Origin: Nitrospinota bacterium
GTDB lineage: Bacteria > Tectomicrobia > Entotheonellia > J063
Direction: 5' to 3'
Assembly: GCA_003696125.1 (NCBI GenBank)
Contig: RFHZ01000807.1
Location: 1 to 5,624, forward strand
DNA: 5,624 nucleotides
Part shown: positions 1 to 5,624 of the stretch, piece by piece
Layout of the letters: every line of letters begins with the position of its first letter
How positions within the stretch are numbered: the first letter of the stretch is position 1
Position numbers and translations under genes: made by a program
Notes under the pieces: generated by a model
The model's database searches: none
Told to the model about the DNA's origin: nothing
Seen by the model: only the letters and a program-made list of their open reading frames with translations

Positions 1-1049
1 TCGCCTTCAAGATTCCGGGAAAGCTGGTCGAGCTGGCGGTCGAGGAGGGGACAGAGGTGACCAAGGGGATGATCGTTGCGCGTCTCGACCAGGAACAGCT
101 CCTCCGGCAGCGGGATCGAGCACAAGCCGCGCTGGCCGTAGCGCAGTCGCGACTCACGCAGCTAGAGACAGAGATCCGGTTCCGGGAAGAGAGACTCGCC
201 AGGCAACTGGAGCAGCAACGGGCCGCCATTGCCCAGGCAGAGGCAAACCTGCGAGCCCTCCTGGCCGGATCGCGAACCCAGGAGATCAAAGCAGCCCAGG
301 CCGCGGTAGAGCAGGCCCGGGCAGAGTACGAGCGAGCCCAGAGCGACTGGAAACGGGCAGAGGAGTTGTTCCGTCGCGGGATCATCTCCGTGGCCGAGCA
401 TGATCGGATGAAGAGCTGGTACGAGGCGAGTGCGGCAGCGTTGAAGCAGGCAGAAGAACGGCTGGCCCTGGTCAAGGAAGGGCCACGCCAGGAGACGATC
501 GAGGCGGCCAGGGCCCAGGTTAAACAGGCCAAAGCTGCGCTGCGACTCCTCGAAGCGGCCCGCCTTGAGCTGGAGATGAAACGGCAGGAGCGAGCCACCA
601 GGCAGGCCGAAGTGGAGCGGGCCCGGGCAGAGCTGGCCCTGGTCGAGAGTCAACTGCGGGATACCGTTGCCCGCTCGCCGGTGGATGGAGTGGTATTGGC
701 CAAGGTGGCTGAGGTAGGAGAAGTGCTCGCTGCCGGGGCCACAGTAGTTACGATAGGAGATATCGCCCATCCCTGGCTACGGGGATATATCGATGAACGA
801 GATCTGGGACGGGTCAAGTGGGGAGCAAAGGTCAGGGTGAGGACCGATTCCTTCCCGGACAAGGTTTACTGGGGACGGGTCTCCTTTATCGCTTCGGAAG
901 CAGAATTTACCCCCAAGCAGATCCAGACCCCGGAGGAGCGGGTTAAGCTGGTCTATCGGGTGAAGATCGATATCCCCAATCCCGACCATGAGCTGAAGTT
1001 GAACATGCCGGTGGAGGCAGAGATCCTCCTGGAAGAAGGCCAGGGATAA
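1..1049 (+). CDS. HlyD/YbhG-like periplasmic adaptor subunit of an ABC-2 efflux system (5' partial)
   Basis: Membrane-fusion (periplasmic adaptor) proteins link an inner-membrane transporter to an outer-membrane channel. The reading frame is open from base 3 and starts inside the first half of a biotinyl-lipoyl-like domain (AFKIPGKLVELAVEEG, then VARLD), so the N-terminal membrane anchor lies outside the window; the GTG at 57 is internal. Of the 348 residues seen (numbered from base 3), about 30-220 form a long Ala/Gln/Glu/Arg-rich coiled-coil hairpin with a turn at RRGIIS (124-129). The arms carry two similar segments, GSRTQEIKAAQAAVEQAR and GPRQETIEAARAQVKQAK. The second lipoyl half (RSPVDGVVLAKV, about 224-253) and a beta-barrel domain follow. 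The C-terminal signature TPKQIQTPEERVKLVYRVKI (303-322) is typical of the YbhG/YhiI subgroup of HlyD proteins. The permease gene begins 3 bp downstream, which implies an operon. The substrate cannot be read from the sequence. Confidence 0.93.
   Translation, partial: AFKIPGKLVELAVEEGTEVTKGMIVARLDQEQLLRQRDRAQAALAVAQSRLTQLETEIRFREERLARQLEQQRAAIAQAEANLRALLAGSRTQEIKAAQAAVEQARAEYERAQSDWKRAEELFRRGIISVAEHDRMKSWYEASAAALKQAEERLALVKEGPRQETIEAARAQVKQAKAALRLLEAARLELEMKRQERATRQAEVERARAELALVESQLRDTVARSPVDGVVLAKVAEVGEVLAAGATVVTIGDIAHPWLRGYIDERDLGRVKWGAKVRVRTDSFPDKVYWGRVSFIASEAEFTPKQIQTPEERVKLVYRVKIDIPNPDHELKLNMPVEAEILLEEGQG
1042..1046 (+). promoter_or_regulatory. Ribosome binding site of the ABC-2 permease gene
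   Basis: AGGGA lies six bases before the ATG at 1053, inside the last codons of the adaptor gene. It supports this start and suggests that translation of the permease is coupled to that of the adaptor. Confidence 0.55.
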
Positions 1050-1052
1050 ACC

Positions 1053-2186
1053 ATGAATCTGCGACGGACCAGAGCCATTGCCCGCAAGGAAACGCTCCAT
1101 ATCCTGCGCGATCCCCGGAGTCTCTTGATGGCGCTGGCCATCCCTTTCCTCTTGCTGATCCTCTTTAGCTATGCGCTTACCCTCGATGTGGACCGGATTC
1201 CGACCATGATCTACGATGCGGATCAGACACCGGCAAGCCGGGAATTGATCCGCCGCCTGCAGGGCTCCCGCTACTTCCAGGTGCTGGCCTTCACCGATCG
1301 CTATGCCACGATCGAGCGGGCCATCGACCAGAATACGGTCCTGATCGGTATCGTCATCCCACGAGGCTTTGCACGTGATCTCTTTTCCGGTCAACAGGCT
1401 ACCGTCCAGCTCCTGCTCGATGGAAGTGACTCCAACACCGCCTCCATCGCCCTCGGCTATGTCAACACCCTGTTGCAACTCTACGCCCTGGAGTGGCGAA
1501 CGCAGATGCTGAACCGGCGACAGGGAGGGGAACCGGTCCCGCCGGTAGAGGGGAGGATTCGGGTCTGGTATAACAGCGAGTTGCGTTCACGGAACTACAT
1601 CGTACCCGGCCTGATCGCCATCATCATGATGATCATCGCCTCCCTGCTCACCTCTTTAACCATCGCCCGGGAATGGGAAATGGGGACCATGGAACAGCTC
1701 CTCTCCACCCCTCTGCGGCCTGCCGAACTCATCCTGGGCAAGATGGTCCCCTATTTCGGTATCGGACTGATCGATATGCTGATCGCTTTGAGTGTGGGAA
1801 CACTGGTATTCCGGGTACCGCTGCGCGGCAGCCTCCTCTTTCTCGGTTCTGTGGCCTGCCTCTTCCTCTTCGGTGCGCTCTGCTGGGGACTCCTCCTCTC
1901 TGCCCTCACCCGCTCCCAACTGCTCGCCTACCAGATGAGCATCCTGACCTCTTTCCTCCCCTCCTTCCTCCTCTCCGGCTTCATCTATGCCATCGAAAAT
2001 ATGCCCCGGGTGATCCAGCTCATCACCTATCTCATCCCGGCCCGCTATTTCATCACCATACTGCAGGGGATCTTCCTCAAGGGGATCGGGCTGAGTTACC
2101 TGGTATTCGAGACCGGGATGCTCCTTCTCTTTGCCGGAGTGGTCTTTTGGGGAGCCATGCGTGCCCTGCCCCGCAAGCTGGTTTAA
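1053..2186 (+). CDS. ABC-2 type transporter permease (YhhJ/YbhS/YbhR-like)
   Basis: This is the integral membrane subunit of an ABC exporter that works with a HlyD adaptor and a separate ATPase. The 377 residues match the usual length for the family. The layout is classic: a short cytoplasmic start with RKETLHILRDPRSLL (11-25), TM1 at about 24-44, a large extracytoplasmic domain (about 45-180), then five membrane segments from about 182 to 370. Hallmarks are REWEMGTMEQLLSTPLRPAE (206-225), the cytoplasmic coupling region expected to contact the ATPase, and SGFIYAIENMP followed by ITYLIPARYF (308-333), typical of drug/antibiotic-type ABC-2 permeases. It starts 3 bp after the adaptor stop. No gene follows on this strand, so it ends the operon. 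Relatives often come as two paralogous permeases (YbhS and YbhR); only one is visible here. A second permease and the ATPase may lie left of the window. The exported substrate is unknown. Confidence 0.95.
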   Translation: MNLRRTRAIARKETLHILRDPRSLLMALAIPFLLLILFSYALTLDVDRIPTMIYDADQTPASRELIRRLQGSRYFQVLAFTDRYATIERAIDQNTVLIGIVIPRGFARDLFSGQQATVQLLLDGSDSNTASIALGYVNTLLQLYALEWRTQMLNRRQGGEPVPPVEGRIRVWYNSELRSRNYIVPGLIAIIMMIIASLLTSLTIAREWEMGTMEQLLSTPLRPAELILGKMVPYFGIGLIDMLIALSVGTLVFRVPLRGSLLFLGSVACLFLFGALCWGLLLSALTRSQLLAYQMSILTSFLPSFLLSGFIYAIENMPRVIQLITYLIPARYFITILQGIFLKGIGLSYLVFETGMLLLFAGVVFWGAMRALPRKLV

Positions 2187-2206
2187 CCGTCCTCTGGGGA
2201 TTCGCC

Positions 2207-2785
2207 CTATCCTGTCCCCTCTTGCTGCTCCTGTAAGGCGTTCACCAGCAGATCGACGGTGAGGGAGTCGATGTTGGTAAAGCGAATTTCGCGGAGAGGG
2301 CTGTCCGGATACTGGGTGCAAAAGTCGAGCGCGGTCCTGACCAGGATCGCGGCGCAGCGGTCTTTGGGAAAACCGAAGATCCCGCTGCTGATGGCCGGAA
2401 GGGCAATGCTGGTAAGCTGCAACTCATGCGCCTTGAGCAGGCTGTTCCACACGGCCGAGCGGAGGAGGGCATCCTCATCGTGCTTTCCATCTCGCCAGAC
2501 CGGTCCTACCGCGTGGATCACGTACCGGGCAGGGAGAGAGCCGGCCCCGGTGACCGCCACCTGTCCGGTAGGTACCGAGCCGTGTTCCCGGACCCAGCGA
2601 TTGCTCTCCTCCTGAATGCTCTGTCCTCCACGCCGCACGATGGCACCGGCCACACCACCCCCATGCGCCAGCTCCGAGTTGGCCGCATTGACGATGGCAT
2701 CGGTCTCCTCCTGGGTCAAATCCCCCTGGCGTACCTGAATGACCTGACCGGATGGAGTGCGGTATTCGGCTTTGAGGGTACTCAT
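2207..2785 (-). CDS. Stand-alone macrodomain protein (ADP-ribose binding / probable ADP-ribosyl hydrolase or O-acetyl-ADP-ribose deacetylase)
   Basis: Macrodomains bind ADP-ribose and many remove it from proteins, or deacetylate O-acetyl-ADP-ribose. The 192-residue protein is essentially one domain. Recognisable motifs are QGDLTQEETDAIVNAAN (20-36: GDL contacts adenine in the family, and NAAN carries the catalytic/ribose-binding Asn), HGGGVAGAI (41-49, first phosphate/ribose loop), VIHAVGPVW (89-97) and LPAISSGIFGFP (129-140, second phosphate-binding loop). The GGGVAGAI form, without the Asp found after GGGV in MacroD-type enzymes, resembles the archaeal AF1521 type more than MacroD/YmdB. There is no signal peptide or membrane segment, so it should be cytoplasmic. 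The ATG overlaps the stop of the sigma-54 regulator gene (ATGA) and has a strong ribosome binding site, so it is the third gene of the kinase-regulator operon. Family membership is clear. The choice of substrate, and any link to the two-component system, is inference. Confidence 0.93.
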   Translation of the reverse strand: MSTLKAEYRTPSGQVIQVRQGDLTQEETDAIVNAANSELAHGGGVAGAIVRRGGQSIQEESNRWVREHGSVPTGQVAVTGAGSLPARYVIHAVGPVWRDGKHDEDALLRSAVWNSLLKAHELQLTSIALPAISSGIFGFPKDRCAAILVRTALDFCTQYPDSPLREIRFTNIDSLTVDLLVNALQEQQEGTG

Positions 2786-4197
2786 GGTCGTTCTCCTCCC
2801 TGTTGTTCGCCTTCGGCAGACCGAACAGTGAGTCCATGCTTTTTCAGCTTATAGCGTAACACCCTTTCGCTGATCCCCAGCTCTTCGGCGGCGCGGGTCT
2901 GGACGTAATCGTGCTGTTCCAGGGCCCGCAGGATCATCTGCCTCTCCAGCGCTTCCAGCACCTGGGGAAGCGTCATCTTCTCTGACCTGGGCCTGCGCTC
3001 TATCTCCGGCTCTGAGGTGCGCAGGTGGAGCGGCAGATCCTCTACCAGGATAACATCGTGGCGGGCCAGGAGCACGGCCCGCTCGATGATGTTCTCCAAT
3101 TCACGCACATTCCCGGGATAATCATAGCGGATGAGCAGGTCCATGGCTTCCCGGGAGATTCCTTTTACCCCTTTGCCGGTCTGCTCTGCACACTTTCGCA
3201 GCAGAAAATCGACCAGCGGCGGGATATCCTCTCGCCGTTCCCGCAACGGGGGTAAGACGATCGGTACCACATTGAGACGGTAGTACAGGTCTTCCCGAAA
3301 CCGCTTTTCCCGGATCGCCTCTTCCAGGTCCTGGTTGGTGGCGGCAATGATGCGGATATCGACCTTAATGGGACGATTGCTCCCTACCCGCTCAAACTCT
3401 CGTTCCTGCAGGACGCGGAGGAGCTTGACCTGCAGGGGAAGGGGGAGATCCCCGATCTCGTCTAAGAAGAGGGTACCATGATTGGCCGCCTCGAAGCGTC
3501 CGATACGTCGCTCTACCGCCCCGGTAAAGGCCCCTTTTTCATGACCAAAGAGCTCGCTTTCCAGGAGATTCTCCGGCAGGGCGGCGATGTTCACCTTGAC
3601 AAAGGGTCCCTCCTTGCGGGGACTGTTGTAATGGATGGCTTTGGCAATCAACTCCTTGCCCGTCCCGCTCTCCCCCCGGATGAGGACGGTGGCATTACTC
3701 GGGGCTATGCGGGCAACCAGGCTGAGCACTTCTTGCATCTTCCCGCTCTCGCCGATGATCTGGTCGAAACGGAACCGTTCGGTCAACTGGGCCCGCAGGG
3801 TCCGGACCTCGGTGAGGAGTTGCTGTCGCTCTTCGATCTTGGTGATCAGGTGGGAGAGTTCATCGAGATCGATCGGCTTGGTCAGGTAGTCGTATGCCCC
3901 CCGCTTCATCGCCTCCACGGCAGAGTCGATCGACCCGTACGCGGTGATGATGACCACGGTGACATCCGGATAGCGTTGCCTGATCTGCTGCAGGAGCTCC
4001 AGCCCGCTCATCCCCGGCATACGGTAGTCGATCAGGCAGAGGGCAAAGGAGCGCTGGCGGAGCAGGTCGAGCGCTTCCGGACCACTGCCTGCCGTCTCTA
4101 CTTCCCACCCGGCCTTTTCCAGGAATCCCTGCAGGATCTCTCGCTGTGAGGACTCATCATCGACGACCAAAATCCGAAACCCTTCCATGCTCATCAC
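2782..4197 (-). CDS. Sigma-54-dependent response regulator, NtrC family (ZraR/AtoC/HydG-like)
   Basis: This transcription activator switches on sigma-54 promoters when phosphorylated by its partner kinase. It is full length at 471 residues. The N-terminal receiver domain (about 8-120) has the acidic pair D13/D14, phospho-acceptor D57 in LCLIDYRMPG, T85 and K107. A linker leads to the AAA+ domain (about 145-370) with Walker A GESGTGKE (175-182), the sigma-54-contacting GAFTGA loop (222-227), Walker B GTLFLDEIGD (241-250) and the FREDLYYRLN segment (300-309) holding the candidate arginine fingers. A Fis-type helix-turn-helix follows (about 432-456), then a short hydrophilic tail. All key residues are intact; one small oddity is VNIAALPE where VNCAALPE is usual. 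The start is ambiguous among GTG 4197, ATG 4194 and ATG 4188; GTG is used here and the choice shifts the N-terminus by at most three residues. It overlaps the kinase gene upstream and the macrodomain gene downstream. Target promoters are not identifiable in this window. Confidence 0.97.
   Translation of the reverse strand: MMSMEGFRILVVDDESSQREILQGFLEKAGWEVETAGSGPEALDLLRQRSFALCLIDYRMPGMSGLELLQQIRQRYPDVTVVIITAYGSIDSAVEAMKRGAYDYLTKPIDLDELSHLITKIEERQQLLTEVRTLRAQLTERFRFDQIIGESGKMQEVLSLVARIAPSNATVLIRGESGTGKELIAKAIHYNSPRKEGPFVKVNIAALPENLLESELFGHEKGAFTGAVERRIGRFEAANHGTLFLDEIGDLPLPLQVKLLRVLQEREFERVGSNRPIKVDIRIIAATNQDLEEAIREKRFREDLYYRLNVVPIVLPPLRERREDIPPLVDFLLRKCAEQTGKGVKGISREAMDLLIRYDYPGNVRELENIIERAVLLARHDVILVEDLPLHLRTSEPEIERRPRSEKMTLPQVLEALERQMILRALEQHDYVQTRAAEELGISERVLRYKLKKHGLTVRSAEGEQQGGERP
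2793..2800 (-). promoter_or_regulatory. Strong ribosome binding site for the macrodomain gene
   Basis: On the minus strand GGGAGGAG stands seven bases before the macrodomain ATG (2785-2783). It lies inside the last codons of the response regulator gene, where it encodes part of the QQGGERP tail. The near-perfect anti-Shine-Dalgarno match fixes the start and suggests efficient initiation coupled to regulator translation. Confidence 0.8.
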
Positions 4198-5624
4198 CCC
4201 TTTTCCTCTTTCTCCGGCTGGATCTGTCCCCCTTCGGGTAACGGCAGCAGGATCTGAAATGCTGTTCCCTGACCGGGCTGGCTGTGCACCGTGATACTCC
4301 CGGCATGCGCCTGGATGATGTGGTGGGCGATGGAGAGTCCCAATCCCACTCCCCGCTGTTTGGTGGTGAAGTAGGGATCAAAGATCTTTTCCCTTACCTC
4401 TGGCGGCATCCCCTCTCCGGTATCGGTGATACGCAGGCGGAGAGCCTTCCCCGTGCTTTCCACCTGCCAGCTCACCTCTCCTCCGGCCGGGGTGGCCTGG
4501 AAGGCGTTGAGGATGATGTTGAGCAAGGCCTGCTTCAGTTGCCGGGGATCTCCTCTGAGCACGGGGAGGGTCGAGGGGAGGTTTACACGCCAGGTGACCC
4601 CTCGTGTCCTGGCCTCTTCCTCCATCAGCAGGGCGATCTCCTGGAACACCGGTTGCGGATCAAACGGTTCTCGCTGCAAGGGGAGGGGGCGGGCCAGTTG
4701 CAAGGTCTGTTCGACGATGCCGTTGAGGCGCTGGATCTCTTTGCGGATGGTGGTGGTGAGCTGCAGGAACTCCTCCTGGGCCTGGTCTCCGGTCTGCAAG
4801 AACTCGCGTTGCAGGCGCTGTATCCCCATGGAGATGGCGTTGAGGGGATTTTTGATCTCGTGTGCCACCCCGGCGGCCAGATTTCCCAGGGCGGCCAGCT
4901 TGCGATTCTGCTCCAGTTCTCGTTCCAGTTGCTGCATCCGTTGCCAGTCCCGTTCCTGGATGCGGGAAATGACCACCACTCCCACCACAGAGAGGAGGAA
5001 GAGGATCAGGCTGTAGGTAAAGATCGAGGCCACCGAGCGCCGCCAGCCCTGCTCGATATGCGTGCTGTCCAGGGCAACGCGAAAGAGTCCGATCTTCTTG
5101 CCCTGAAAGAAGAAGGGACGGGTGACCTCCAACACCTGCTTTTCTCCCAGGGTGAGGAGACGCATCTGTTCGGTATTACTCTCCAGGCTCTGCCGGAGGA
5201 AGGGATCCTCCTCTCTGGTCCCGATTCGCCGGGCATCGGTATGGGCGATGTAGGTGTAATCGGTATCTTGCAGGGAGACGGCGGTGATGAGGGGATGGCT
5301 TTTCAGATCCTCGATGAGACGCTGAACCCCGATCTCCTTGCGGAAGTTCAGGATATAGTCGGCATCAGCCGTGATCACAATGACACCCGGCACGGTGGCC
5401 CGTCTCACCGCCACCCCGTACTTCTTGCCCAGCCAGAATTTCTCCTCCCCAAATCCTGTAAAAGCCTCCTGTGCCTTGCCGCGCAAGATAGGATCGTAGA
5501 AATGGCGTCGCATGTGGGAAGGCATCCGTCGCATCATCTCCCGCATCATGCCCATTCCCGGCATCATGCCCATTCCTGGTGGCGGCAGAGGGGGCTGTCC
5601 ACGTAGATGTGGTGTGGAGGGAGA
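4194..5624 (-). CDS. Membrane sensor histidine kinase, ZraS/HydH-like, with Met-rich sensor start (N-terminus beyond the window)
   Basis: This kinase senses a signal outside the cytoplasm, autophosphorylates, and passes phosphate to the adjacent sigma-54 regulator. The frame is open to the right edge. The ATG at 5573 (residue 1 of the numbering used here) is preceded by 17 more in-frame codons (SPSTPHLRGQPPLPPPG), has no good ribosome binding site, and would leave the protein without a first membrane anchor, so the true start is probably further right. Visible order: a Pro- then Met-rich segment (10 Met and 2 His in residues 1-24), an extracytoplasmic sensor domain (about 40-178) with a PDC/Cache-like look, a membrane helix (about 181-203), a short coiled linker, a HisKA domain with H238 in GVAHEIKNPLNAI, and a HATPase domain with N box (about 352-356), G1 DTGEGMP (384-390), F box FDPYFTT (398-404) and G2 GVGLGLSIA (408-416). 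No HAMP domain or cytoplasmic PAS domain is evident. Its stop overlaps the regulator start. The signal is unknown; metal is suggested only by the Met/His content. Confidence 0.95.
   Translation of the reverse strand, partial: SPSTPHLRGQPPLPPPGMGMMPGMGMMREMMRRMPSHMRRHFYDPILRGKAQEAFTGFGEEKFWLGKKYGVAVRRATVPGVIVITADADYILNFRKEIGVQRLIEDLKSHPLITAVSLQDTDYTYIAHTDARRIGTREEDPFLRQSLESNTEQMRLLTLGEKQVLEVTRPFFFQGKKIGLFRVALDSTHIEQGWRRSVASIFTYSLILFLLSVVGVVVISRIQERDWQRMQQLERELEQNRKLAALGNLAAGVAHEIKNPLNAISMGIQRLQREFLQTGDQAQEEFLQLTTTIRKEIQRLNGIVEQTLQLARPLPLQREPFDPQPVFQEIALLMEEEARTRGVTWRVNLPSTLPVLRGDPRQLKQALLNIILNAFQATPAGGEVSWQVESTGKALRLRITDTGEGMPPEVREKIFDPYFTTKQRGVGLGLSIAHHIIQAHAGSITVHSQPGQGTAFQILLPLPEGGQIQPEKEEKG
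4205..4208 (-). promoter_or_regulatory. Candidate ribosome binding site of the response regulator gene
   Basis: A minus-strand purine run reading GAGGAAAAGGGG precedes the start codons. GAGG is seven bases from GTG 4197 and ten from ATG 4194, while GGGG is eight bases from ATG 4188. All three starts are therefore served and the sequence does not decide between them. The run lies in the 3' end of the kinase gene (codons for the PEKEEKG tail). Confidence 0.45.
5543..5579. repeat. 18-bp tandem repeat encoding PGMGMM twice in the sensor kinase
   Basis: Two adjacent copies with an 18-bp period (units starting at 5543 and 5561) share 16 identical bases, GCATCATGCCCATTCC, then differ at one base and match at two more. 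On the coding (minus) strand they give the hexapeptide PGMGMM twice. A shorter third GCATCAT occurs at 5531-5537. The period is a multiple of three, so gain or loss of a unit would change Met content without breaking the frame. Confidence 0.85.

Follow-up and report, generated by a model that had tools for sequence, protein, structure and literature searches.

A stretch of 5,624 nucleotides (the window) carries a macrodomain gene directly behind a two-component system, in the minus-strand order sensor kinase, NtrC-type regulator, macrodomain, which raises the question of whether the macrodomain is a working part of the signalling system or a chance companion of it. The source of this DNA is a metagenome bin of 4.18 Mb, made up of 990 contigs with 95% completeness and 8% contamination, from a phylum represented by only five species in the genome collection used. 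The features of the window are collected in Table 1. The macrodomain gene is flanked by the regulator gene and by an ABC-2 permease gene, which is convergent with it across a gap of 20 bases.

Table 1. Features of the window, with coordinates, strand and the basis of each assignment.
Feature	Coordinates	Strand	Basis
HlyD-type membrane fusion protein, 5' end cut by contig, outside operon	3..1049	+	Pfam PF13437/PF16576
ABC-2 type transporter permease, outside operon	1053..2186	+	Pfam PF12698
MacroD-class macrodomain protein of 192 aa with alanine-type HGGGVA loop, a predicted (ADP-ribosyl)hydrolase	2207..2785	-	Pfam PF01661, AlphaFold, VIA-align
Regulator stop and macrodomain start, overlapping in ATGA	2782..2785	-	Sequence reading
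Shine-Dalgarno-like GGGAGGAG ahead of macrodomain ATG, within the regulator's last codons	2793..2800	-	Sequence reading
NtrC-type sigma-54-dependent response regulator, start GTG 4197, ATG 4194 or ATG 4188	2782..4197	-	Pfam, NCBIfam
Sensor histidine kinase, sCache_3 + HisKA + HATPase_c, 5' end cut by contig end	4194..5624	-	Open frame, Pfam

The start codon of the macrodomain gene (ATG, 2785-2783) and the stop codon of the regulator gene (TGA, 2784-2782) share the bases ATGA, exactly as described in the original prediction. The stretch preceding the ATG is CAGGGAGGAGAACGACCATG, and the Shine-Dalgarno sequence said to lie within the regulator's last codons was found as GGGAGGAG at 2800-2793, with its GGAGG core 9 nt from the ATG. 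The order of the three genes was likewise as predicted; the overlap claimed for kinase and regulator depends on the regulator start, as three starts are possible and give an overlap of 4 nt (GTG 4197), of 1 nt within TGATG (ATG 4194) or of none (ATG 4188). Start/stop overlaps like these are common and not unusual in themselves. A simple scan of positions 2000 to 4400 gave no internal site resembling a promoter or a terminator, and the kinase, regulator and macrodomain genes very probably form one transcription unit. Loose matches to the sigma-54 consensus were no more frequent in the window than by chance (10 versus 11.7 expected); the operon's own promoter region lies off the contig.

The regulator is a complete NtrC-type protein, with a receiver (Response_reg), an AAA+ domain with intact GAFTGA (Sigma54_activat) and a Fis-type HTH (HTH_8), and RpoN is present in the genome. 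The kinase has intact HisKA and HATPase_c domains and an sCache_3_2 sensor; its frame is open up to the contig end at 5624, and its true start may be off the contig. Identity with AtoSC or ZraSR was rejected, as all NCBIfam equivalog cut-offs (AtoS/AtoC, ZraS/ZraR) were missed: the regulator scored 543.7 bits against AtoC (cut-off 714) and 455.4 bits against ZraR (cut-off 760), and the kinase 228.5 against ZraS (cut-off 479), a score lowered somewhat by its 5' cut. No zraP-like gene was found in the window, which stops at the kinase with the contig. No kinase orthologue was evident in four relatives from the same phylum, where the matches listed cover the kinase core from about residue 180 and none covers the sensor part. 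The visible N-terminal part of the kinase (5490-5624, minus strand) is rich in Met and His (PPPGMGMMPGMGMMREMMRRMPSHMRRHF), which suggests a metal-sensing extracytoplasmic segment. Two further loci of the same genome were observed. One encodes, 47 nt behind another NtrC-type regulator, a Met-rich, secreted-looking, ZraP-like protein (L155:3038-3670, minus strand) whose match to Pfam Metal_resist is weak (27.8 bits, below the cut-off of 29.2). The other (L152:1-5601) holds in a row a kinase, an NtrC-type regulator, a MerR regulator (30-nt gap) and a metal P-type-ATPase-like protein, and is likely a metal-response locus.

The macrodomain protein matches Pfam Macro (PF01661) with 144.7 bits (1.5e-42), and its AlphaFold model has a mean pLDDT of 95.3. 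VIA-align recovered the Macro fold, with Z of 25-32 against many macrodomains; the top matches, effectively tied at Z 30-32, were macrodomain 1 of PARP14 and of PARP9, the MacroD-type enzyme of O. iheyensis and E. coli YmdB, macrodomain 1 of both PARPs giving Z of about 31.5 and that of PARP14 aligning at 1.2 A over 184-186 residues. Active mono-ADP-ribosyl hydrolases are marked by the motifs N(6x)GG[VLI] and G[VIA][YF]G (PMC10470015), which occur in the window protein as N36 SELAHG G43 G44 V45 and G135 I F G138. Assignment to the MacroD enzymes with the classic motif xDx(4)H after the glycine stretch (PMC7729036) was rejected, as A46 and V50 stand where Asp and His are expected. Coronavirus macrodomains have His before the glycines and Ala at the Asp position, and HGGG is found also in macrodomain 1 of PARP9 and PARP14 (PMC7729036); the catalytic loop of the window protein, HGGGVA, is of this coronavirus Mac1 type (H41-GGG-V-A46), with H41 ahead of the glycines and A46 replacing the classic Asp. 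Because the loop motifs and the His/Ala arrangement are present, the protein is likely an active (ADP-ribosyl)hydrolase, which is the best prediction. In NCBIfam it scores best against an AAA ATPase model of 599 aa (PRK13341), of which it matches the C-terminal part; at another locus (L065:3-1302), a RarA/MgsA gene and an alanine-type macrodomain gene overlap at the start of the latter.

Unlike that of the window, the macrodomains of phylum relatives belong to the classic Asp type. In a tree, from which the mis-called, long-branched row L008 was ignored and in which the nearest relative of the window protein is not resolved, this protein is placed outside the clade that its phylum relatives (L007 and L010) form, among poorly separated branches that are mostly of Ala type. 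Given their different type and clade, the window gene was probably not inherited vertically along with the genes of these relatives, although the tree is poorly resolved around it. The coronavirus-type loop (HGGG.A) has been found in one of 1706 human-microbiome macrodomains (PMC7729036). By a rough motif count it was present in 17 of the 110 macrodomains of our Pfam survey, and among named loci it occurred in Chloroflexota, Aquificota, Nitrospirota, Thermotogota and archaea (L003-L005, L052-L070 and others). As a small side result, this type of active site turns out not to be a rarity among environmental bacteria and archaea.

A macrodomain type unlike that of the phylum relatives, in a metagenome bin of 990 contigs with 8% contamination, might also point to an assembly artefact, in which the macrodomain gene was misjoined to a foreign two-component locus. 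Base composition is, however, even over all five window genes (G+C 0.59-0.62, GC3 0.71-0.76) and matches that of other contigs of the bin (G+C 0.54-0.61), and an in-frame ATGA with a Shine-Dalgarno sequence at the junction would not be expected from a random misjoin. We therefore consider such a misjoin extremely improbable; the whole contig could be a contaminant.

No macrodomain gene other than that of the window was found in the genome. A sirtuin is encoded elsewhere in the same genome (contig C782), and neither KptA nor DarT was found there. No sirtuin, DarT or other transferase gene adjoins the macrodomain gene within the window; the side beyond the kinase is off the contig, which ends inside the kinase gene, and an ADP-ribosyltransferase gene further upstream in the same operon is possible. 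Among other macrodomain loci, a sirtuin gene adjoined the macrodomain gene in 1 of 219 (L238).

These 219 loci comprised 29 from 40 sampled genomes, the 80 nearest named ones on GTDB contigs and 110 obtained in a Pfam survey covering 290 genomes; about 1.36 Mb in all were scanned with the kinase and regulator of the window. Some genomes are shared between the samples, and the flanks extended over about 1.5 to 5 kb, less at contig ends, so a few occurrences of the order could be missed. The same trio, whose recurrence in other genomes had been proposed as a check, was found at none of these loci: a kinase-regulator pair stood upstream of the macrodomain gene in 0 of 219, and the order was absent from the other genomes of the phylum that were examined. 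Two-component genes of any kind adjoined the macrodomain gene at four loci, each time in a different type or order, namely a hybrid kinase 91 nt upstream (L223), a kinase-regulator set with PAS/GAF sensors downstream (L052 and L105) and a regulator-like ORF on the opposite strand (L229). The loci of the best relatives of the regulator, 19 in number, held no macrodomain gene. Adjacency confined to very close relatives had been named as speaking against the original prediction, and the pattern found is effectively of that kind, the nearest genomes compared belonging to the same phylum and none to the same genus or family. Its interpretation was thus sustained in part: one transcription unit and the hydrolase motifs stood, and a functional third member of a ZraSR-type system, for which the order was not recovered and the equivalog cut-offs were missed, did not.

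Nor did the suggestion fare better that the macrodomain acts on the regulator. Direct action, in which the macrodomain would strip ADP-ribose from the regulator or the kinase and so reset signalling, has adjacency as its only argument; the association is conserved neither among the 219 loci nor in the phylum genomes examined, the open-access literature yielded no paper that connects a macrodomain with a kinase and a regulator through such an action, and no transferase known for NtrC-type proteins was in view. We judge it very improbable. Likewise, no account of a two-component operon that includes a macrodomain was found in open-access papers. For Fusobacterium, earlier work has described macrodomain operons whose spread is very limited (PMC6397177), so finding a macrodomain in an unusual operon is not in itself new.

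How readily such adjacency arises by chance can be gauged from the neighbours of other macrodomain genes, which were near-random, the largest common neighbour family accounting for 5 of 89 loci. In this set of 89 loci with usable neighbours, the upstream gene was on the same strand in 51 of 86, and about a quarter (21) had an upstream gene within -40 to +30 nt, which differed at nearly every locus and had many unrelated functions, among them the rRNA methyltransferase RsmE and RarA/MgsA (by Pfam) and cysteine desulfurase-like and histidinol dehydrogenase-like proteins (these, like the others, read from sequence). Conversely, by mechanical ORF calling, 8 of 27 sampled NtrC-type regulators, about a third, were followed on the same strand within 30 nt by an unrelated gene, whose kind varied. 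With sigma-54 activator domains numbering about 20 and 41 HATPase_c hits in the genome (about 4.2 Mb), a few percent of its estimated 4,000 or so genes would be expected to follow such a two-component gene by chance. Two recurrent neighbours of alanine-type macrodomain genes were observed, both of them RNA methyltransferase genes: a member of the SpoU family follows directly in three Anaerolineae (L054, L057, L060), and RsmE stands directly upstream at three loci (L004, L059, L249), one of them from a Desulfurobacteriaceae bacterium.

The macrodomain is most likely a chance neighbour of the two-component system, because the arrangement occurs at none of the 219 other loci. We hold it highly probable that the gene encodes a housekeeping MacroD-class ADP-ribose-processing enzyme, co-transcribed with an unrelated two-component system in a one-off, lineage-specific placement and without a dedicated signalling role. 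A housekeeping gene whose neighbours vary from genome to genome would have landed at the end of this operon, and its product would be translated from the kinase-regulator mRNA by way of the start/stop overlap. Because of the shared mRNA and this overlap, the level of the enzyme would follow that of the operon. With an alanine-type active site as in macrodomain 1 of PARP14 and PARP9, the enzyme may be a general ADP-ribose hydrolase or an O-acetyl-ADP-ribose deacetylase; its likely substrates would be O-acetyl-ADP-ribose, presumably formed by the cell's own sirtuin, and/or mono-ADP-ribosyl adducts. We infer that the macrodomain has no regulatory role, while operon membership, even one-off, can still be functional.

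A function of this kind is envisaged in a lineage-specific module, in which a sensed stress would induce ADP-ribosylation and the co-expressed macrodomain would reverse it or clear ADP-ribose metabolites without contact with the regulator. The translational overlap with its good Shine-Dalgarno sequence is in keeping with such a module, as is the fact that no second macrodomain gene was found in the genome, so that the control of this one would matter, and stress-controlled expression has a precedent in the macrodomain SCO6735, which is UV-induced and has a RecA-NDp promoter (PMC5087735). Yet the order does not recur elsewhere, the window holds no transferase gene and its sigma-54 matches are at chance level, the promoter region of the operon being off the contig. 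We regard the module as unlikely and leave it some weight because the contig lacks the operon's upstream part and the comparison stops at phylum level; we consider it decidedly unlikely that, in a deep and sparsely sampled lineage, a stress response run by a sigma-54 two-component system has the macrodomain as a genuine output, taking off ADP-ribose while the stress is sensed. Were the module real, it would tie the reversal of ADP-ribosylation to a named bacterial signalling pathway, the substrates of bacterial macrodomains being mostly unknown. As it stands, the locus chiefly calls for caution, as start/stop overlaps behind regulators are frequent and, unless conserved, say little about function.

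Comparison with known systems places the kinase and regulator beside AtoSC and ZraSR, which likewise consist of adjacent genes for a sensor kinase and a receiver/AAA+/Fis-HTH regulator; to our knowledge, no macrodomain gene is part of either. Sirtuin/SirTM-macrodomain and DarT-DarG pairs resemble the window in having a macrodomain as the remover of ADP-ribose, but there the transferase is adjacent, whereas here none is visible, the sirtuin is encoded elsewhere and DarT was not found. E. coli YmdB and the Oceanobacillus iheyensis macrodomain, which are O-acetyl-ADP-ribose deacetylases or mono-ADP-ribosyl hydrolases, are stand-alone bacterial proteins like that of the window (Z 30.5-31; 41% and 29% identity) and differ from it in their classic Asp-type loop, where it has Ala, and V50 for His. 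PARP14/PARP9 macrodomain 1 and coronavirus Nsp3 Mac1 share with the window protein the MacroD-class HGGG-type loop and both hydrolase motifs. Compared with PARP14/PARP9 macrodomain 1, to which it is about 35-37% identical, the window protein is a stand-alone bacterial protein of 192 aa whose activity is predicted; with coronavirus Mac1 it has in common the His before the glycine stretch and the Ala at the Asp position.
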